Positions 38,160-55,706 are shown, counted from the first letter of the stretch. The stretch: 64,000 nucleotides of DNA from Thermodesulfobium sp. 4217-1 (GCF_039822205.1 NZ_JBAGBW010000003.1:1-64000); one strand, 5' to 3'. Translations and numbers: made by a program. Notes: generated by a model not told the origin, from the sequence alone.

Positions 38160-38189
38160 TAACCGTTTTGAAAAATTAATATAGTTAAA

Positions 38190-38416
38190 AGCTGTGAACA
38201 GGAGTAGTAGAGAGCAAAACTTTCTTAGAGAGCCGAAGGTTGGTGCGATTCGGTAAAGGGCGCTTTTGAACTCGCCTGGGAGCTTTTCTGGTGAATCTTA
38301 GTAATCAGAAACGTTCGGCTGCGTTAATGCCTTGAGAGAACCGTCTTTTTTGATGGTTAATCGTGGTGGTACCGCGGAAATTCCCTCCGTCCTCGTGATG
38401 TGAGGGTTTTTTTTTA
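38190..38416 (+). promoter_or_regulatory. T-box leader RNA of ilvB, probably leucine-specific
   Basis: Stem I features include GGAGTAGTA (about 38201), AGAGAGCCGAAGGTTGGTGC and its pairing partner GATTCGG. The antiterminator core TGGTGGTACCGCGG lies at 38364-38377. A terminator follows, with CCCTC/CCTC pairing GAGGG at 38402-38406 and then nine T. CTC at 38271-38273 after TTGAA is the likely specifier codon (Leu). Uncharged tRNA would favour readthrough. This occupies the 341-base gap before ilvB. Confidence 0.9.
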
Positions 38417-38440
38417 AAAATTTTGGAAGGAGGGATATTT

Positions 38441-45573: not shown

Positions 45574-46089
45574 ATGGATAAGCAAAAGAAAATGAAAATT
45601 TTACTAGGTGTTCTAATCATAATCCTTTTGTTAGTAGCTGGCATTTACGTTTATCCTCAATTATTTCAATCAAATGTCAATAAACCTCAAGTTGTTCAAA
45701 CCCCTAAGCCTTCTGTGACCAATAAGGAGGCTAATGTGTCAAATAGTATTATCAACCCAGAAACTCTTGAAAAGCCAAAAGTCCAAATAGGCAGGTCTGA
45801 TCCATTTATCCCACTTATTGGTTCCGAGGGGAACTCCTCAAACGCGCAAGGTTCATCAGGTTCAAATACTAATTTCCCTATGATTAAAATGAATCCATTT
45901 CCAACGAGTTTAAGATTGGTGGGGATTATGAGAGTTAACGATAAAATGACAGCCATTATAGAAAATGGACAACAAACATATACAGTTAGAAGTGGCGATA
46001 TTATACTGGGCAACATAAGGGTTGTAGATGTTTACCTAAACAGTGTAGTGCTAACTTCTTCGGGGCAAACAAAAACCTATGAATTATAA
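45574..46089 (+). CDS. pilP: PilP-like pilus assembly protein
   Basis: A 171-residue protein with an N-terminal membrane segment (about 8-26), a Pro/Asn/Ser linker with SDPFIP, and a small beta domain with LRLVGIMRVNDKMTAIIENG and YTVRSGDIILGNIRVVDV. This layout fits PilP, which links PilNO to the secretin; the membrane anchor is an uncleaved segment with no lipobox Cys. AGGGAGA precedes ATG 45574. It overlaps the frame of pilQ only beyond the chosen pilQ start. Confidence 0.8.
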   Translation: MDKQKKMKILLGVLIIILLLVAGIYVYPQLFQSNVNKPQVVQTPKPSVTNKEANVSNSIINPETLEKPKVQIGRSDPFIPLIGSEGNSSNAQGSSGSNTNFPMIKMNPFPTSLRLVGIMRVNDKMTAIIENGQQTYTVRSGDIILGNIRVVDVYLNSVVLTSSGQTKTYEL

Positions 46090-46108
46090 AATATGTGAGG
46101 TGAATTTT

Positions 46109-47980
46109 ATGAAATGGATCTTAAGATCTTGTTTATTTTTATCTTTTTTATTTTTTGCAACCATATCGTATGCCGCTGATAAGACTGCGCTTGTTAACAT
46201 AGGTACAAACAACCAAAGTACATACGATGAACTGACGCTCACCTTTTCTGGTCCCATAGATCTTAACAGTGTCCTCCAGGAAAGGCTTAATTATCCTGAT
46301 TCCATAAAATTCACATTTAAAAATACTTCGCTTTCCCTAAAACCAGGACAGAAAATTTTTGCCGATCTATCAAAAATTGATTATCTTTCTTATTATGTTG
46401 TTCCAGAGGGCGTAGAGCTTTATGCTTATCTTAGAGATCCTGACGTCAGCGTAAGCATCCAAAAGACGGCAGATAATGTTTTGGTCTTAAAATTCCAGCC
46501 AAAAGAAGCTGCTAAATCTGCAACAAATGAAAGTGCTCAGAATACAGTTTCTAATCAAAATAATTCAAGTTCTGGAAATATAAACAATTTAGATTCTGGC
46601 TTATACCCAAAGGGTTATAACCCTTCAAGTCTTAATTCGAATATTGATAATACGCAGCAGGTTCAGGCTCAATCAGATAATTCTCCTATGATATCGTACA
46701 TGGCATTTAAGGGAGCTGATATAAGGGATGTTTTGGCTACTCTTGCGAGGTTAGGCGGATATAATCTGGTAGCATCTGATTCTGTTAAGGGATCCGTTAC
46801 CGTAGATCTTAAAGATATAAGCGTTGATGATGCAATTAAACTTGTTACGAAGATTAACAATTTTTCAATGCAAAAGGTTGGGAATGTTCTTGTGATTGGT
46901 AACAATAAAGATCTGAGTAACTTTGGTGTGATCAGGGTATATAAGTTATATAATGTCGGGAATAAAACTGTTATAGAGACTTCTACTTCTGCAACTTCTG
47001 GCGGAGGCAGCGGTGGAGGAGCCTCTGGGTTAACTATAAACAAGGTAACCACAATGAGACAGGGAGCTGATGTGGCAAAGCTGATAGCAGAGGGTATTGG
47101 CGCATCATTCTCTTCAACAAAGATTGCATCATCTTCTGGCGGGGGCGAGTCAGCATCCACATCTAACTCTACTGACAGCTCGGGTAAGGTACTCTATGAT
47201 GATAGAACCAATACCATTACTGTAATAGCACCAGAAGATAAACAAAAAATTGCAGAAAATTTGCTCCAAAATCTTGATACACCGCTTAAACAAATTGAAG
47301 TTCAGGTAATGGTTATTGAGCTTGATAACCAAGGGATTAAAGAGATTGGCATAAATTGGCCAAATAACGTTCAGCTCTCAGGAACTGCTACTGCGACAAG
47401 GACTTATGGAACGTCTAAGAGCAAATCTAGTGTTTATACGGGTACTATTTCTAATATCACTGCATCTCTTTATGCTCAGCTAAATAATAGCAATGGGAAA
47501 ATACTTTCTGATCCAAGAATTCTTGCATTAGACGGTCAGGATTCTTATGTATTTGCAGGTGATAAATTGTATATACCTCAGGTATCTTCTGCTACTGGCG
47601 GAAACGTGACCTACACTACAAATGAATATGACGTAGGTGTTTTGCTAAAAATTACTCCCTTTGTAGGCGAAAATGGTGAGATAACGATTCATGTTACGCC
47701 TTCTGTTTCTGCGTTTAATGGTGATATTTCTCAACTTCAGATCAATCAACCATTTACTACAACCATTAGGGAGGCTGATGTAACAGCAAGAGTAAAGGAT
47801 GGACAGACTTTCTATATCGGTGGTCTTATAAGCGATGAAGATAGAAAACAAACTATTTCTGTGCCAGGATTGGGCAATATGCCACTACTTGGACCTATGT
47901 TTAGATATGATTATCGTCTAAAGAGCAAGACAGAAGTAATATTTTTACTTACACCTCATGTCGTAAAAAGTAGCTTGTGA
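46109..47980 (+). CDS. pilQ: Type IV pilus secretin PilQ
   Basis: Outer-membrane secretin for the pilus. 623 residues. Signal peptide MKWILRSCLFLSFLFFATIS ending near YAA, AMIN-like and STN domains (ISYMAFKGADIRDVLATLAR), a secretin N domain with an inserted Gly/Ser-rich loop (about 300-370), and the secretin pore with VPGLGNMPLLGPMFRYD and the end TEVIFLLTPHVV. ATG 46109 follows TGAGGTGA; an in-frame ATG 46079 would spoil the signal peptide. Its presence implies a diderm envelope. Confidence 0.92.
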   Translation: MKWILRSCLFLSFLFFATISYAADKTALVNIGTNNQSTYDELTLTFSGPIDLNSVLQERLNYPDSIKFTFKNTSLSLKPGQKIFADLSKIDYLSYYVVPEGVELYAYLRDPDVSVSIQKTADNVLVLKFQPKEAAKSATNESAQNTVSNQNNSSSGNINNLDSGLYPKGYNPSSLNSNIDNTQQVQAQSDNSPMISYMAFKGADIRDVLATLARLGGYNLVASDSVKGSVTVDLKDISVDDAIKLVTKINNFSMQKVGNVLVIGNNKDLSNFGVIRVYKLYNVGNKTVIETSTSATSGGGSGGGASGLTINKVTTMRQGADVAKLIAEGIGASFSSTKIASSSGGGESASTSNSTDSSGKVLYDDRTNTITVIAPEDKQKIAENLLQNLDTPLKQIEVQVMVIELDNQGIKEIGINWPNNVQLSGTATATRTYGTSKSKSSVYTGTISNITASLYAQLNNSNGKILSDPRILALDGQDSYVFAGDKLYIPQVSSATGGNVTYTTNEYDVGVLLKITPFVGENGEITIHVTPSVSAFNGDISQLQINQPFTTTIREADVTARVKDGQTFYIGGLISDEDRKQTISVPGLGNMPLLGPMFRYDYRLKSKTEVIFLLTPHVVKSSL

Positions 47981-48792
47981 TAAAAAAGTTCTTTATTGTT
48001 CTTACTATAGCTTTAGCTATAGGTTTGGTTTTTTATCTTGTTAAAGGTAGAGTTGGAAGCGTTGATAAAGTTCAAAACAGTAGTAAAACTGTTGAAAAAA
48101 ATATTTCTGATGTTCAAAACAATAGTACATCTTCGAATACAAGCAACACAAAGGACAAGACAGATAGGAAAATTGATGAAACATCTAAAACTTATAGTTC
48201 AAGATATGAGATTGATAGGGCAAAAGGCAAAACTGTCGTTCTAACCTTTGATGCAGGTGCGGACGGAAGCAGATTGCCAGATATTTTAGATATTCTATCT
48301 GAAAATCATGTCAAAGCAACCTTTTTCCTTACAGGTCCGTTTTGTGAAAAATATCCGAATCTTGTTAGTATGATTACTAAGCATGGTTTTGAAGTTGGAA
48401 ACCATTCTTATGCGCATCACGATATGACAAAAATGTCCGATGAGGCGATCAAAGAAGATATTTTAAAGGCCCAAAATATTATTATTGAAACTACTGGTCA
48501 GGATCCAAGGCCTTGGTTTAGACCACCTTATGGAGCACGAAACGATAGGGTGAGAGGGGTATTGAAATCTTTGGGATATGAGACAGTGTATTGGACTATT
48601 GACTCTCTTGATTGGGAGGATAATATGACTGTTGATAGAGAGAAAAAGAGAATATATAATAATTTAAAAGATGGGAGCATAATATTGCTTCATATTGGTA
48701 GCAAAACTACTCCTGTGATTCTTTCTGAGATGATAAAGTATTTTAAGAGTCAAAATTATAGAGTTACTGATTTATCTGGAGCTCTGCGATGA
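47977..48792 (+). CDS. Polysaccharide deacetylase (NodB domain) coupled to pilQ
   Basis: A 271-residue protein with an N-terminal membrane anchor (about 4-22), a Ser/Asn/Lys-rich linker and a NodB domain: VVLTFDAGADG near 88, ATFFLTG, HSYAHHDMTK near 142, RPPYGARN and LHIG. The second Asp of the usual TFDDG is Ala, as in some family branches; the metal histidines remain. Its GTG overlaps the pilQ stop (GTGA). Likely acts on peptidoglycan GlcNAc in the periplasm, perhaps making room for the pilus. Confidence 0.87.
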   Translation: MIKKFFIVLTIALAIGLVFYLVKGRVGSVDKVQNSSKTVEKNISDVQNNSTSSNTSNTKDKTDRKIDETSKTYSSRYEIDRAKGKTVVLTFDAGADGSRLPDILDILSENHVKATFFLTGPFCEKYPNLVSMITKHGFEVGNHSYAHHDMTKMSDEAIKEDILKAQNIIIETTGQDPRPWFRPPYGARNDRVRGVLKSLGYETVYWTIDSLDWEDNMTVDREKKRIYNNLKDGSIILLHIGSKTTPVILSEMIKYFKSQNYRVTDLSGALR

Positions 48793-48807: not shown

Positions 48808-49266
48808 ATGAAAATTCTTGTTGCTGTCGATGGTTCTAAATATTCTAGAGAGGCAGCACTTTGGGCAGTAAAGATAGCTAGGAAAGAAGTTGAATATAAG
48901 ATTATTGCAGTTTATGTAGAAAAGATACTTTCGAGAAACGATTATTCTTTATCAGATGAGGATCTTGATCTTAGAATCGATAAAAATGCAAAAAATGTGT
49001 TTGAAAAGTCTTTTGAAAACATAGAGCTTGATGGTATAAAAATTGAAACAAGAGTTGAAAAAGGCAGTCCCGCTTCGAAAATTTTGGATATTTCTGATAA
49101 AGAAGATGTCGATTTAATAATTGTCGGCAGTAGGGGGAGATCTGGTGTAAGCCATTTCTTTCTGGGCTCTGTGTCTGACAAGGTTTTTACTTATTCTGTA
49201 AGGCCGGTGCTTGTCGCTAAGGTTAGAGAGATAGAGCCAATAATAGAAACGGTGGCTATAACTTAG
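48808..49266 (+). CDS. Universal stress protein, UspA family
   Basis: A 152-residue single-domain Usp starting MKILVAVDGSKYSREAALWA with the C-terminal ATP-binding motif IIVGSRGRSGVSHFFLGSVS. AAGGAGGA precedes ATG 48808. It may be read with the pil operon. It converges on, and overlaps by 11 bases, the minus-strand glycosyltransferase, with no terminator between them. Confidence 0.9.
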   Translation: MKILVAVDGSKYSREAALWAVKIARKEVEYKIIAVYVEKILSRNDYSLSDEDLDLRIDKNAKNVFEKSFENIELDGIKIETRVEKGSPASKILDISDKEDVDLIIVGSRGRSGVSHFFLGSVSDKVFTYSVRPVLVAKVREIEPIIETVAIT

Positions 49267-50356
49267 ATTTAAAGATACTTTCTGACTCTTTATAAAGTTC
49301 AATTAGCGATGATGTAATTTTTTCCCATGAAAAATTTATTGCATAAGGTCTTGCCTTTTTTTCTAAATCTACTCTTACGTCTTTATTTTTGATTAAATAG
49401 CATATCTTATTCGAAAGATCGATGTGGTCGTTTGGCTCTACTAATAATCCATATTGACCGTTTTTTAACAGGGTTCTGTAACCAGTAATGTTCGATGCAA
49501 TTACCGCAGTGCCACAAGAGAGCGCCTCTAAAATAGTCATACCAAAGCTTTCTCCTCCCAATGCTGGCGAACAAAATATCCAAGCTTTGGAATATTCTTT
49601 TGCAAGGTCTTCTTCGCTTAATTCTCCCAGAAATTTTATGCTTTCTAATTCTTGAAATTTACTAATTTTCTTTTCGGTAGAATATCCTGCAATTCTGAGC
49701 TGGGCATCGGGAAAGTTTTTAGAAATTTTGTTCCATGATTTTAATATTACGTCAAGGCCTTTTCTTTTTTCAAGCCTACCTACAAAAAGGACTGTAGGGT
49801 TCTGATATTTTTCACAGGGTGCAAATATATCAATATTGACTCCGTTTGGTACAATTTTGAAATCACCAGATATATATTGTTCGGCAAAATGCATTGACGC
49901 TTCGGATACAGCAATTTTGACAGCTACCTTGCTTGAAAATCTTTTTGATATTGGTTTAAACCATTCGAAAGGAAATGGGATATCTGAGTAGGCATGAAAC
50001 GTTCCCACTATAGGTTTGTTAAGTGCGAATACTGAAAAAAGAGATGGACCTGGTGCGAATGGTTCATGTATATGCCAAATATCAAAACTTTCTTTAAGCA
50101 AGAGTATTTTTCCTAATGCGCCTGGAGTTGGGGCGAGCCTTGCTATTGAGCCATTTGTCATAAATGGAAGTGAACGCCCCACTGTGTGAAATCTCGCGTG
50201 ATCTATATTATATGCGAGTATTTTTCCTGGTTCAGCAGGCGCAATTATATGAGTTTCGATATTCTGCTTGTCGAAAAATTTTTGTAGAAAAAAGAGATGG
50301 GTGTTAACTCCACCTTTAAAGGAAAAAGAGTATGGACTAACAAGCGCTATTCTCAA
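49256..50356 (-). CDS. PimA-like GT4 glycosyltransferase
   Basis: A 366-residue GT-B glycosyltransferase of family 4. It matches mycobacterial PimA in the N-terminal part: ALVSPYSFSFKGGVNTH, LPFMTNGSIARLAPTP, WHIHEPFAPGPS and PIVGTFHAYSD; the donor site has LFVGRLEKRKGLDVI and EALSCGTAVIASN. PimA transfers mannose from GDP-Man to phosphatidylinositol. TTG start overlaps the upstream stop (TTGA), with GGAG nearby. Its place after PatA-like and phosphatidyltransferase genes supports a lipid acceptor. Confidence 0.86.
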   Translation of the reverse strand: MRIALVSPYSFSFKGGVNTHLFFLQKFFDKQNIETHIIAPAEPGKILAYNIDHARFHTVGRSLPFMTNGSIARLAPTPGALGKILLLKESFDIWHIHEPFAPGPSLFSVFALNKPIVGTFHAYSDIPFPFEWFKPISKRFSSKVAVKIAVSEASMHFAEQYISGDFKIVPNGVNIDIFAPCEKYQNPTVLFVGRLEKRKGLDVILKSWNKISKNFPDAQLRIAGYSTEKKISKFQELESIKFLGELSEEDLAKEYSKAWIFCSPALGGESFGMTILEALSCGTAVIASNITGYRTLLKNGQYGLLVEPNDHIDLSNKICYLIKNKDVRVDLEKKARPYAINFSWEKITSSLIELYKESESIFKSKL

Positions 50357-51219
50357 CTATAATCATCTCCAATCCAATTCGGTTGAAAGATAAACCATTG
50401 AGTTGGGCTAATTGTTACCAAGTTTTCTATATGTTTTATTATCAAATTTGTGATTTCTTCTTTTGAGCATTCAACATTGTACTCTATTTCTTTAAAATAT
50501 ACTTGATATTTATTATTAGATTTATATAAAGCAGCTACAAAAAATTTTGGATTTGTTTTTTTAATCAAAATTGATGGGCCATCATTGAATATGCACTCTC
50601 TGCCAAAGAAAGTGGTCTTAATTCCGTGGCTGGTTAGATTCCTATCGACCACAAGAGCTATTACATTGCCATTTCTTAACTCCTTTAATGACTTTATAGC
50701 AGTAGCTTTGTTAAGAGGTATTATTTCTAGTCCAACTTTCTTCCTAATTCTCTTGAAGAAGTTAAATAGCCAATTTGGTTTTATGGATTCTACCACTGCA
50801 AATGCTTCTTTATTACATTCTCTTGCTGCAGAAGCTATCAAAAAGGACCCGAGATCCCAATTTCCAAAGTGTGCTGTAGTAACTATTATCCCTTTGTCAT
50901 TCGCTCTCTTAAAACACTCTTTGATGTTTGAATATGAAGCATCAAAATCATTTATAAAATATCTAATAAATTTAACCATAAACGGTAAAAAAATTACTTC
51001 AAGATAATAAATTGAATAGTTATAAAAATTTTGGGCTACCATAGAATCTAGCTCTTTTTCGCTTAAGGATGGAAATTGTGACTTAAACCTAAGCCTGGAC
51101 ATTTGGCACCCTTTTTTGTGAAGAGACATCATAATATGTGAAATTGGATGCGCTAAAAGATTTATAGTTTTAAGGATAAGACTGCATAGAAAAATTTGAG
51201 CCCTTTCTTTATAGAGCAC
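50353..51219 (-). CDS. PatA/HtrB-like lysophospholipid acyltransferase
   Basis: A 288-residue membrane-associated acyltransferase. The H-x4-D active site is TTAHFGNWDLG near residue 118, followed by VVDRNLTSHGIKTTFFGRE near 195. That pattern is closer to PatA (acyltransferase of phosphatidylinositol mannosides) than to lipid A LpxL. It starts at GTG with a weak ribosome site. Neighbour order (phosphatidyltransferase, this gene, PimA-like) equals the mycobacterial pgsA-patA-pimA order. Confidence 0.84.
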   Translation of the reverse strand: MLYKERAQIFLCSLILKTINLLAHPISHIMMSLHKKGCQMSRLRFKSQFPSLSEKELDSMVAQNFYNYSIYYLEVIFLPFMVKFIRYFINDFDASYSNIKECFKRANDKGIIVTTAHFGNWDLGSFLIASAARECNKEAFAVVESIKPNWLFNFFKRIRKKVGLEIIPLNKATAIKSLKELRNGNVIALVVDRNLTSHGIKTTFFGRECIFNDGPSILIKKTNPKFFVAALYKSNNKYQVYFKEIEYNVECSKEEITNLIIKHIENLVTISPTQWFIFQPNWIGDDYS

Positions 51220-51274
51220 TATCTTACATTAACCTTAAATTAATTTGAAATTAAAAATTTTATAACTTTTCAAA

Positions 51275-51847
51275 CTATCTGTATCCTTTAAATGCAATAA
51301 AAATCCTTTGAAAAGTTGTAAAAATTGATAGAGCTGTAAGTATTATAAGGCCCAGCAACAAATATCCTGATGCTAAAGATACGATTAACAATATTAACCT
51401 CTCTGGTCTTTGCATAAGCCCACCTTTTATTGGGACGTTATCGCACTCAGATCTTGCTTTCGCATAAGAAATCATATATGAAAAGATCATTGCTAAAAAA
51501 GAAAAAATTATAATCAGGTTATTGTTATTTAGTATTCCATATATCGCTATAAAGGAGAAAATAAAGCCTTCTGAAAGCCTATCGAGTGTAGAATCTAAAA
51601 ACCCGCCAAATTTGGTTATTTTACCAGAGATTCTTGCTACTGCGCCGTCTAATGAATCAAAAGAAACAGCAATTAGTAAAAATATTGCGCTAAATAGTCC
51701 TGGTAGAAAGATGATTGAGAGAGATGCTGCAAAAGTTAACAGAGTACAAAAAATAGTTAATGAATTTGGAGAAATATTCATTTTTGAAAGGAAGCTCGCT
51801 ATGGGATAAATAATAGGTTTTACTAATTTTCTCTTATCTATTTCCAT
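51275..51847 (-). CDS. CDP-alcohol phosphatidyltransferase, probable phosphatidylinositol-phosphate synthase
   Basis: A 190-residue protein with several membrane segments and the full catalytic motif DSLDGAVARISG...GGFLDSTLDR (D-G-x2-A-R-x8-G-x3-D-x3-D). The later YAKARSE and GLMQRPERLILL segments resemble enzymes that use inositol-1-phosphate (PIP or archaetidylinositol-phosphate synthases). Inositol-1-phosphate synthase is in the same operon. Overlaps the upstream PHP gene by 14 bases. A glycerophosphate acceptor is less likely. Confidence 0.85.
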   Translation of the reverse strand: MEIDKRKLVKPIIYPIASFLSKMNISPNSLTIFCTLLTFAASLSIIFLPGLFSAIFLLIAVSFDSLDGAVARISGKITKFGGFLDSTLDRLSEGFIFSFIAIYGILNNNNLIIIFSFLAMIFSYMISYAKARSECDNVPIKGGLMQRPERLILLIVSLASGYLLLGLIILTALSIFTTFQRIFIAFKGYR

Positions 51848-52568
51848 TTATTAACCTGCCACCTATTTTTTGTGCAATATTTTTAATGTCTGAGTTTAGC
51901 CTTGTTCTTGCAATTCTCAAATGTTCTTTTATGCTCCAAAATTCTCCACATGCTATAGTTTGTCTATTTATTATAGCTCTTTTTACGTCTTCAAGCGTTT
52001 TTACGTTGTCTGGAAACAGCGTATACGCACTTCCTATTGTGTCTAGTGTATGAGAATCGGTTCCTGCGAGTTCTGCTAAATTTAATGTCTTATTTAAATC
52101 TATCACCTTTTGTCTAATCACTCTGCCAGCAAGTGTAGGATTTATTATTTCTATTGCGTCTGGTTTCGGAAAGTTTTCTTTTTTAAATATATTTTTTATA
52201 CAACGAAGTGGGATGCTGTATGTTAGGGGGCTCATTGGGTGGGGGAGAACTATTATTCCTCCTGATTCATAGGTTATTTCTATAGTTTTGTAAAGGCTAG
52301 TGAATTTTCTAATATGCCTGTCTATAAAAAGGCATATTATATGGCCCTGGAGCGTAGTTACTTCGACTCCTGGAACGACAATTATGCCATATTTTTCGCC
52401 TAATTCGGCTGCTTTTAGAGAGCCCTTTATGTTGTCGTGATCGGTTATGGCTATTATTTTAAGATCAGTATTTCTTGCTGCATATTTTACAATCTCTTCT
52501 GGCGAAGCTATTCCATCACTAAAGCTGCTGTGTATGTGAAGGTCGCCTTTAATAAATTTTTTATCCAT
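51834..52568 (-). CDS. PHP-domain phosphoesterase 2
   Basis: A 244-residue metal-dependent phosphoesterase of the PHP family: GDLHIHSSFSDG at the start, AITDHDNIKGS near 40, VPGVEVTT near 65, and LAGTDSHTLDTIG near 168. These supply the usual trinuclear metal ligands. Relatives cleave nucleotides or phosphate monoesters. In this operon it could dephosphorylate inositol-1-phosphate or phosphatidylinositol phosphate, an inference from position only. GGAG precedes its ATG. Confidence 0.85.
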   Translation of the reverse strand: MDKKFIKGDLHIHSSFSDGIASPEEIVKYAARNTDLKIIAITDHDNIKGSLKAAELGEKYGIIVVPGVEVTTLQGHIICLFIDRHIRKFTSLYKTIEITYESGGIIVLPHPMSPLTYSIPLRCIKNIFKKENFPKPDAIEIINPTLAGRVIRQKVIDLNKTLNLAELAGTDSHTLDTIGSAYTLFPDNVKTLEDVKRAIINRQTIACGEFWSIKEHLRIARTRLNSDIKNIAQKIGGRLINGNR

Positions 52569-53337
52569 TTTTTATCTCCATAGGCAGAAAGATGTACCAC
52601 TGATTTGGGTACTTGATTACATATTTTTCGAAAGAGTTTGCCCATTCTTGCATAGCTATCCTGTAATCTTTCTTGGGTTCAATATAATTTTCTATATAAC
52701 AGTCAAAGTCAAATGGTTTTTTTCTGATTATAAAAACTGGTAAAATTGGGCAGTTTCTTGATGACGCTATTTGAAACGCTGCCTTTGGAAAAGAAACTTT
52801 GTGATTTAAAAAATCTACATATTCTGAAGGAAAATTTGATGATATATCGCTTAGCATACAAAGAGGACGATTTTGTTTAAGAGATGTTATTATTTCTCTT
52901 AAGCCATTTTTTGCAGGGATTACATCAAAGCCTATTCTTGAACGAATTAGCTTTATGATATAGCCGGCAAGTGGAAAGTCTAGATTGGCCACAACTTTGA
53001 GCTTTAAGTCTTTATGGTCAAGTAGACTTCCAATATCCCAATTGCCAATATGTGCCGTACTTACAATTGCCCCTCTTTGAAGTGAAAGCGCCTCATCAAG
53101 ATATTCTAAATTTAAAAACCTCACGTTAAATTTTTTCTTGTTAAAAATTAACGTGATAACTTCGTATATATAGTCGCTAAATGAAACAAGGGCTTCTTTG
53201 GCAAGTTGTTCTGGGTTTTGCTGACCTGATGCGCTGCTTATTAACTTATAATTGTCGAGTACGACTTCTCTTTTTTTCTTATTGTCCCAGTAGATGCCAA
53301 AGATTACCCTTTTTATTAACTTTTTCAGTAAAGACAG
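52561..53337 (-). CDS. Second lipid acyltransferase, probably starting at CTG
   Basis: LpxL/PatA-like acyltransferase with TAHIGNWDIGS as its H-x4-D site and SDISSNFPSEYVDFL further on. A GTG at 53124 gives only 187 residues, cutting off the N-terminal part. The frame stays open upstream to the ino1 stop and reads like the family N-terminus (RVIFGIYWDNKKKREVVLDN). No ATG, GTG or TTG occurs there, but CTG 53337 follows AAGGGAGA by about six bases, two bases after the ino1 stop. With that start it has 258 residues. Overlaps the PHP gene by eight bases. Confidence 0.75.
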   Translation of the reverse strand: MSLLKKLIKRVIFGIYWDNKKKREVVLDNYKLISSASGQQNPEQLAKEALVSFSDYIYEVITLIFNKKKFNVRFLNLEYLDEALSLQRGAIVSTAHIGNWDIGSLLDHKDLKLKVVANLDFPLAGYIIKLIRSRIGFDVIPAKNGLREIITSLKQNRPLCMLSDISSNFPSEYVDFLNHKVSFPKAAFQIASSRNCPILPVFIIRKKPFDFDCYIENYIEPKKDYRIAMQEWANSFEKYVIKYPNQWYIFLPMEIKNG

Positions 53338-53338
53338 A

Positions 53339-54403
53339 TTATTCTCCCTTTATAAAATCTTCAAGCATTGCTCTTGCTTGGGTGTCTGGATATTGTACAG
53401 GTGGACTTTTCATCAAGTACGCACACGCGCTGACTATCGGGCCTCCCAATTTTCTATCTTTTGCCAATTTTACTAACCTTACTGCATCGACTATTATTCC
53501 GGCAGAATTCGGAGAATCCCAAACTTCTAGCTTGCACTCAATATTTAATGGAACTTCACCAAAGGCTTTGCACTCTATTCTTACGTATGCCCATTTTCTA
53601 TCGTGTAGCCACGGAATATAATCTGATGGCCCTATATGTATATTTTCTTCTGACATTGGCTCTGGCATTAGAGAATTTACCGCATTGGTTTTGCTAATTT
53701 TTTTTGATTCCAATCTCTCTCTTTCGAGCATGTTCAAGAAGTCTAAATTGCCGCCAACATTAAGTTGGAATGTCCTCTCTATCTCAAGTCCTCTATCAAG
53801 GCAAATTTGTGTAAGTGCTCTGTGCAGTATTGTGGCTCCCAATTGAGATTTTATGTCGTCGCCTATTATGGGCAAGTTTTTATCCTTGAATTTTTTTGCC
53901 CATTCTTCTTTGCTTGCTATAAAAACTGGTATTGCGTTTATTACACCAAGATTTGCTTCTAACGCACAGTTCATATAGAATTCGGCGGCTTTTTGGCTGC
54001 CCACTGGTAAGTAATTTATCAACACATCTGCTTTTGCTTCTTTTAGAACTTTTACAACGTCGACAGGTTCTGCTTTTGATTCTATTATTGCTCTAGCTGC
54101 GTATTTTCCTATACCATCGTTGGTATGCCCTCGCATAACTGTTACGCCGAGATTTGGAACGTCATGGATTTTTATTGTGTTGTTTGGCTCTGCAAATATG
54201 GCCTCTGAGAGATCTTTGCCAACTTTTCTCTCATCAATATCAAAAGCAGCAACAAAACGAATGTTTTCTAATTTATATGGCCCTATCTCATCATGGATTA
54301 ATCCTATAGGGTTTTTTTCTGAATTTCTATAAAATTCAACGCCCTGTACCAGAGATGAGGCGCAATTTCCAACCCCTACTATTGCAACTCTTATTTCTTG
54401 CAT
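53339..54403 (-). CDS. ino1: Myo-inositol-1-phosphate synthase
   Basis: Converts glucose-6-phosphate to inositol-1-phosphate with NAD. The 354-residue short form resembles actinobacterial and archaeal enzymes: [17 protein letters not shown] at the start, [43 protein letters not shown] near 180 and [13 protein letters not shown] near 217. AAGGAG precedes ATG. It supplies the inositol head group for the phosphatidyltransferase of the same operon, and possibly for compatible solutes. Confidence 0.95.
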
Positions 54404-55062
54404 TTTAAAACTCCTTTCTTTTTTTGAAAACTTGCTGATATTTTATAAAAAATATTTTCCACAAAAAAATATCTTCCAAAAATTGTAGATTGGCTTAAGA
54501 TTTTGACTAAATTGTCCCTACAAAAGTTTAAATCTGTTTCAACATAAGAATAAGTTCTACCAAATCCCTCTATCGAATGTGCATCACTTCCTGCTGCGTC
54601 CACCTTTCTGTATTGACTCGCAAATCTCTTTGCAACAAAATTTTCATATGGTAATGATTTTGCATTAAACGATTCAATTATATCAAATTGATCTATTAGT
54701 AGTTTCTTGGCATTACTTTTTAGGGCACTTCTAAAGACAGAAAATGGATGGGGTATATATACAAGCCCTCCCTGTTCCCTGATTTGGTTGATGGTATCTT
54801 TTGCGCTTAAAAAAGGTTTAATTTCACTATGCAAAAAAAGCCCAATTATTTCTCCTTCTGAAGTAAGGATTTCTTCACCTACTATGACTTCAATCTCTTT
54901 TATTTTCTTCTTTGCAAGTAGTGCTCCTTTTATTGTATTGTGGTCTGTGACAGCAATTACGTTTATGCCATTTAACAGCGCTTTTTTACGTAAATCTTCA
55001 ATTGATATATTTGAATCCTTTGAAAAGTTAGTGTGAATATGCAAGTCAATTTTATATTTCAT
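54391..55062 (-). CDS. PHP-domain phosphoesterase 1
   Basis: A 223-residue PHP protein: [51 protein letters not shown] and [12 protein letters not shown] provide the metal ligands. Related to but shorter than the second PHP gene. Its ATG overlaps the nth stop (ATGA) and its end overlaps ino1 by 13 bases, so it sits tightly inside the lipid operon. Function within the pathway is inferred from position. Confidence 0.85.
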
Positions 55063-55706
55063 TTATTTATTGATATGCCTACCTTTGGGCAAATGTCATA
55101 TAAAACGCATTCTGGACATTTGGGTTTTTTTGCGGTACATATCGTTCTTCCGTGTTGGTTTAGAAAATAAGAAAACTTAAACCAATCTTTTTCTTCAACA
55201 TTAGAGGCTATTTCTTTTTCAACAATTAATGGGTCATCCTTTTTGGAAAGGGACAATCTTACTGCCAGCCTTTTCACGTGTGTGTCAACAATTATAGCGC
55301 TTTTATTAAATACATAGCCTAAAATGGCATAGGCAGATTTCCTGCCTATGCCTGGAACTTTAATTAGATTGTCAAAGTCATTGGGCAAATTCCCCCCGAA
55401 ATTTTCAAGTATAAATTTTGCTCCCTCTTTTAGAGACCTTGCTTTGTTGTGATAAAATCCAGTTGAATGGATTGCCTTTTCTAAACTATCTAACGAAATA
55501 CTGTTTAAATCATCAAAATTTTTCAGGTATTGAAATAAGTCTTTTGTAACAAAATTTACCTTTTCATCGGTACATTGTGCAGATAGAATTACAGATACAT
55601 AGAACTCAAAAGGGCTATTAAAAATCAATTTACTTTTTATTTCTGGATAAAGCTTTTGAAGCCTGATTAATATTTCAGAATAAGTATTGCTATTATTTGA
55701 GATCAT
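55059..55706 (-). CDS. nth: Endonuclease III
   Basis: DNA glycosylase/AP lyase for oxidised pyrimidines. It has LSAQCTDEKVN, helix-hairpin-helix KVPGIGRKSAYAILG with the catalytic Lys, catalytic Asp in IIVDTHVKRLAVRL, and a C-terminal 4Fe-4S loop C-x6-C-x2-C-x5-C. 215 residues. Five bases after pnp, with no Shine-Dalgarno of its own. Confidence 0.95.
   Translation of the reverse strand: MISNNSNTYSEILIRLQKLYPEIKSKLIFNSPFEFYVSVILSAQCTDEKVNFVTKDLFQYLKNFDDLNSISLDSLEKAIHSTGFYHNKARSLKEGAKFILENFGGNLPNDFDNLIKVPGIGRKSAYAILGYVFNKSAIIVDTHVKRLAVRLSLSKKDDPLIVEKEIASNVEEKDWFKFSYFLNQHGRTICTAKKPKCPECVLYDICPKVGISINK

Follow-up and report, generated by a model that had tools for sequence, protein, structure and literature searches.

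Within the window analysed here, a stretch of 64,000 nucleotides (NZ_JBAGBW010000003.1:1-64000, assembly GCF_039822205.1) of Thermodesulfobium sp. 4217-1, seven tightly packed minus-strand genes (49256-55062) appear to constitute a single operon for the synthesis of an acylated phosphatidylinositol glycoside, i.e. a lipid resembling the phosphatidylinositol mannosides (PIMs), in a diderm bacterium that bears lipid A. This reading was deduced from sequence, and we assign it a probability of roughly 0.78. The biosynthesis of PIMs is regarded as a speciality of actinobacteria. The cluster described in an earlier note on this DNA is real, with every gene at the position and on the strand given there:

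54391..55062, minus strand: PHP1, PHP-domain phosphoesterase (PF02811 and PF13263)
53339..54403, minus strand: INO1 (MIPS), myo-inositol-phosphate synthase of the actinobacterial type (TIGR03450, PF01658)
52561..53337, minus strand: AT1, acyltransferase of the LpxL/PatA superfamily (PF03279), with an inferred CTG start at 53337
51834..52568, minus strand: PHP2, PHP-domain phosphoesterase (PF02811 and PF13263), candidate phosphatase for phosphatidylinositol phosphate (PIP)
51275..51847, minus strand: PIPS, CDP-alcohol phosphatidyltransferase of the phosphatidylinositol-phosphate synthase type
50353..51219, minus strand: PatA-like acyltransferase (PF03279), closest PDB match mycobacterial PatA
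49256..50356, minus strand: PimA-type GT4 glycosyltransferase, TTG start, closest PDB match PimA

Adjacent genes overlap by 4-14 nt or almost touch, the exception being a 55-nt gap between the PIPS and PatA-like genes. Sequence shows the families and active-site residues of INO1, PIPS and the GT4, the conserved linkage of the genes, and lipid A genes elsewhere in the genome. Beyond this, we infer the substrates and products of the pathway, what PHP1, PHP2 and the two acyltransferases do, and the envelope location of the lipid, as follows. INO1 would convert glucose-6-phosphate into inositol-phosphate, which PIPS would join to CDP-diacylglycerol (CDP-DAG) to yield PIP. A phosphatase, most likely PHP2, would then turn PIP into phosphatidylinositol (PI), and the PimA-type GT4 would transfer one hexose, by analogy mannose, onto the inositol of PI. 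Finally, the two PF03279 acyltransferases may place acyl chains on the sugar and/or the inositol.

The phosphatidyltransferase PIPS (190 aa) finds its top PDB matches among actinobacterial PIP synthases (6h53, 6wm5 and 5d91; E 4e-23 to 3e-21). The CDP-alcohol phosphotransferase motif DxxDGxxAR...GxxxDxxxD is intact, and the residues D68, D71, R75, D89, D93, R94, S132, K135, R137, R152, R155 and R195 (Mycobacterium tuberculosis numbering) are kept, 12 out of 12, in all four members of the genus. In PIP synthase, R155 and R195 hold the phosphate group of the substrate, and enzymes that use inositol-phosphate conserve R94 (PMC6506517, PMC4634129). The earlier note had proposed an inositol-phosphate-type enzyme, and these residues agree with it; the protein is not PgsA-like. 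PIPS-like proteins are common, with approximately 100 matches above 90 bits across the 290 genomes sampled, therefore PIPS as such is not restricted to actinobacteria; INO1 adjoins it in several of these genomes. The single INO1 of the Thermodesulfobium genome matches TIGR03450 over its full length (545 bits) and PF01658 above the cut-off.

The closest solved structure to the GT4 is PimA (4n9w/2gej, E 4e-53), followed at a distance by the next match at 3.5e-16. In a tree of 47 proteins, all PimA-like proteins fell into one clade (99/99), from which MshA and the other GT4s of the same genomes were excluded, and within this clade the Thermodesulfobium proteins grouped with actinobacterial PimA (93/96). 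The motifs NGSIARL, EPFAP, GTFH, PNGV, EKRKG and LGGESFG were recognized, among them the catalytic ExRKG and GGESFG. NGSxAR is the acceptor-region motif of PimA; NGSIARL is common to the window GT4 and actinobacterial PimA, and most other PimA-like proteins of diderms differ at this motif. The PimA-like character proposed in the earlier note is thus supported, including at the acceptor-region motif. The top NCBIfam match of the GT4 was MshA (86 of 462 bits), an identity ruled out by the PimA structure match and by the clade excluding MshA; two other GT4 genes of the same genome match the MshA model weakly.

As the earlier note had pointed out, the genes for PIPS, the PatA-like acyltransferase and the GT4 belong to the three families of the mycobacterial pgsA1-patA-pimA genes (Rv2612c-Rv2611c-Rv2610c) and follow one another in that order, and the best solved relatives of all three products are actinobacterial enzymes. 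The operon differs from the mycobacterial cluster in the addition of INO1, a second PF03279 acyltransferase and two PHP genes, as well as in its lipid A-producing host, and the similarity is modest. The literature, incompletely covered, yielded no report of the PimA/PatA/PIPS set outside actinobacteria. In the Gram-negative Bacteroides, the BT_1522-BT_1526 cluster likewise combines INO1, PIPS and a phosphatase; however, phosphoinositol dihydroceramide is what this cluster finally makes, its phosphatase is of the PgpA-like type, and the paper makes no mention of PimA (PMC9246714).

Another counterpart was found in two LpxC-encoding genomes (G067 and G338; clusters L077 and L147), which carry PIPS, INO1, an acyltransferase, a PimA-like GT4, a second acyltransferase and PHP2 in one run. 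The order is different and PHP1 is missing, and G067 has a second match to a CDP-alcohol transferase. As these two genomes share flanking synteny, they were counted as one further lineage. The earlier note had regarded the second acyltransferase and both PHP enzymes as extras to the mycobacterial cluster. They are, but the acyltransferase and one PHP enzyme recur in this other lineage, and PHP1 adjoins the set only in Thermodesulfobium.

PimA-like GT4s (E <1e-40) occurred in 25 of 386 genomes, 22 with LpxC and three without it, and the window GT4 is 31-38% identical to any of those outside its genus. We also observed PF03279-like acyltransferase genes adjoining PimA-like GT4 genes, apart from PIPS-INO1, in two LpxC-encoding families (f31 and f70; L150, L154, L157 and L148, L149, L152). 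This hints at a possibly wider occurrence of PI glycosides in diderms than described so far.

Thermodesulfobium constitutes a phylum of its own. The source genome (2.0 Mb, 36% G+C) belongs to a genus of four genomes, outside which the nearest sampled genomes share only the rank of domain. In all four, the order nth-PHP1-INO1-AT1-PHP2-PIPS-PatA-GT4 is identical, and this conservation of eight genes, together with the recurrence of the set, rearranged, in one other lineage, indicates that the arrangement is not due to chance. The seven genes are preceded by rpsO, pnp and nth, with minimal spacing or slight overlap between genes. The gene immediately upstream, nth (endonuclease III; 55059..55706, minus strand; TIGR01083, 207 bits), probably belongs to the gene run but not to the pathway.

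Each of the four genus members encodes LpxC. In the source genome, it shares a gene run with BamA (Omp85 and POTRA domains), LpxD, FabZ and LpxA, which also contains a DAHP-synthetase-family gene that, by its position, we take for KdsA and an SIS-CBS gene that may be KdsD-like. An LpxL (151 bits), a stronger match than the cluster acyltransferases, is encoded apart from the cluster in each genome, and neither of these acyltransferases is therefore needed for lipid A. Judging by the encoded LpxA, LpxC, LpxD, BamA and LpxL, the host is a lipid A-bearing diderm. The non-actinobacterial, diderm host of the earlier note is supported; of its suggestion that the glycolipid stands in place of or beside lipid A, the former part has to be rejected and the latter stands.

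The two acyltransferases are less clearly placed. The closest PDB match of the PatA-like protein is mycobacterial PatA (E 1.7e-13), followed by a lipid A acyltransferase (1.3e-4), and the PatA model PRK07920 gives 119.6 bits versus 79 bits for the lipid A acyltransferase model, both below the cut-off. The catalytic dyad of PatA consists of H126 and E200 (PMC4792965); the window protein has the His motif (HFGNWD) and an aspartate at the E200 position. Its placement as a PatA is thus only weak. AT1 (PF03279, 96.9 bits on the long frame; motif HIGNWD) is about equidistant from PatA and lipid A acyltransferases. Its first ATG, GTG or TTG lies at 53124, and the PF03279 homology begins upstream of it. 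As the conserved N-terminal part holds no such codon, while three species (those of the window, L024 and L025) share a CTG (53337-53335, minus strand) that follows GGGAG at a distance of about 6 nt, the CTG is most likely the start, which makes the protein longer than the first conventional codon implies.

The operon may also bear on the bulk phospholipids of the organism. A PF01066 search, in which all 14 control genomes were matched, returned one protein per genome of the genus, namely the cluster PIPS, and PgsA and PssA were found in none of these genomes by profile searches, as distinct from full annotation. The matches to PF13091 (PLD family) were polyphosphate kinase, two SNF2/PLD helicases and a 220-aa PLD protein; a PLD-type synthase of phosphatidylserine or cardiolipin was considered but not found, no match having the build of such an enzyme. 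The sole Lgt-family protein of the genus (L213, L214, L215; minus strand, ~254-257 aa) reads GRIGCFLNGCCYG where Escherichia coli has GRLGNFINGELWG, so that the signature GRxGNFxNGExxG is replaced and a cysteine occupies the position of E151. In E. coli Lgt, E151 contacts phosphatidylglycerol (PG) and is essential (PMC4728403). The presence of an Lgt as evidence for PG was set aside given this degenerate signature, and a lipobox scan of a small sample, consisting of the window plus a few loci, detected no convincing sign of lipoproteins. Beside the Lgt-like gene, on the plus strand, lies a gene for a putative SLH-domain beta-barrel porin of ~477 aa (OmpM-like). OmpM-like SLH porins are the type of outer-membrane tether found in other deep diderms.

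These gene inventories suggest that PG may be absent and that PI may be the base phospholipid. As no CDP-alcohol phosphatidyltransferase other than PIPS was found in the genus, PI probably serves as a major bulk phospholipid as well. A more extensive scenario, which we put forward only tentatively and consider rather doubtful as a whole, is that PI is the main or only CDP-DAG-derived phospholipid, PG, phosphatidylethanolamine and cardiolipin being lacking, that it is converted into acylated PIM-like glycolipids beside lipid A with the aid of a PHP-family PIP phosphatase, and that the divergent Lgt uses a lipid other than PG.

Several observations weigh against an operon for a PIM-like lipid. 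PIPS scores 146 bits with NF045883, below the equivalog cut-off of 170 bits; this cut-off was reached in only 2 of 290 genomes and is therefore set for actinobacterial members, so the cluster enzyme is best described as PIPS-like by its residues instead of as a curated equivalog. It scores as high with the archaetidylinositol-phosphate synthase model as with the PIPS model, and its tree is too divergent to place it. INO1 falls short of the TIGR03450 cut-off (638 bits) and the PatA-like protein, at 120 bits, of the PatA cut-off (209), and the acyltransferase tree was likewise too divergent for the window proteins to be placed. The GT4 joins true PimA with moderate support, its exact sister position being weak (93/31), and no GDP-mannose enzyme was identified, although no genome-wide search for GDP-mannose synthesis genes was made. 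To these are added the reliance on profile searches for the absence of PgsA and the mere existence of an Lgt-family protein, which normally implies PG.

The identity of the PIP phosphatase is a separate question. PHP1 and PHP2 are paralogues (~26% identity), and the metal ligands of the PHP fold are intact in both (H11, H13, D43, H44, E69, H110, D171 and H173 in PHP2 numbering). In bacteria this phosphatase was described as unidentified prior to the Bacteroides work, and the one known so far is the PgpA-like BT_1525 (PMC9246714); none from actinobacteria was found in the literature searched. The chances are evenly balanced that PHP1 and PHP2 are ordinary RNA or nucleotide phosphoesterases which came into the operon by chance, the true enzyme (e.g. 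a PgpA-like one) being encoded elsewhere, and this would be compatible with the proposed pathway. It would agree with the precedent of BT_1525 and with the closest named families, i.e. CehA/McbA, RNase RNM and nucleoside bisphosphatase. However, among 386 genomes, the two best matches of PHP2 outside the genus (G338 and G067; 197 and 177 bits, the next 127) both sit inside the PIPS-INO1-AT-GT4-AT-PHP2 runs, and PHP2 overlaps PIPS by 14 nt. Because PHP2, like the second acyltransferase, accompanies the set again in a further LpxC-encoding lineage, PHP2 is most likely the best candidate for the PIP phosphatase here.

A different explanation, which we regard as unlikely, is that the operon ends at plain PI as a bulk phospholipid, whereas the GT4 and the acyltransferases serve another glycolipid or lipid A/lipooligosaccharide. 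PF03279 is, after all, the family of lipid A acyltransferases, the trees give neither the PatA-like protein nor AT1 a resolved placement, and the f31 and f70 genomes keep the acyltransferase-GT4 pair away from PIPS-INO1; but the separate LpxL, the PimA-type NGSIARL motif and grouping of the GT4, and the mycobacterial gene order all argue against it. It is highly improbable that the single phosphatidyltransferase is, or doubles as, a PG-phosphate synthase, with inositol phosphate destined for an osmolyte or other use, as INO1 serves di-inositol-phosphate in Thermotoga and archaea: the enzyme is indeed the only PF01066 protein found and an Lgt-family protein is present, yet its inositol-phosphate residues are all conserved, the pgsA model gives 26.6 bits against a cut-off of 109, and the Lgt lacks the PG-contacting glutamate.

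Two further features of the window lie outside the cluster. Where the earlier note places a PilQ secretin, we see an open reading frame (ORF) at 46079-47980; directly 3' of this secretin-like gene, a secreted-looking polysaccharide deacetylase (PF01522) is encoded at 47977-48792 (plus strand). A strong T-box leader (153.6 bits; 38185-38397, plus strand) precedes an ORF at 38423, here in a lipid A diderm.

If the proposed operon is what it appears to be, the first steps of PIM synthesis are linked in diderms that make lipid A, and the origin of this glycolipid pathway is reopened. The conserved PHP partner offers a concrete candidate for the phosphatase that converts PIP into PI. Should PI also prove to be the only CDP-DAG-derived phospholipid, Thermodesulfobium would be a rare natural example of a bacterium without phosphatidylglycerol.

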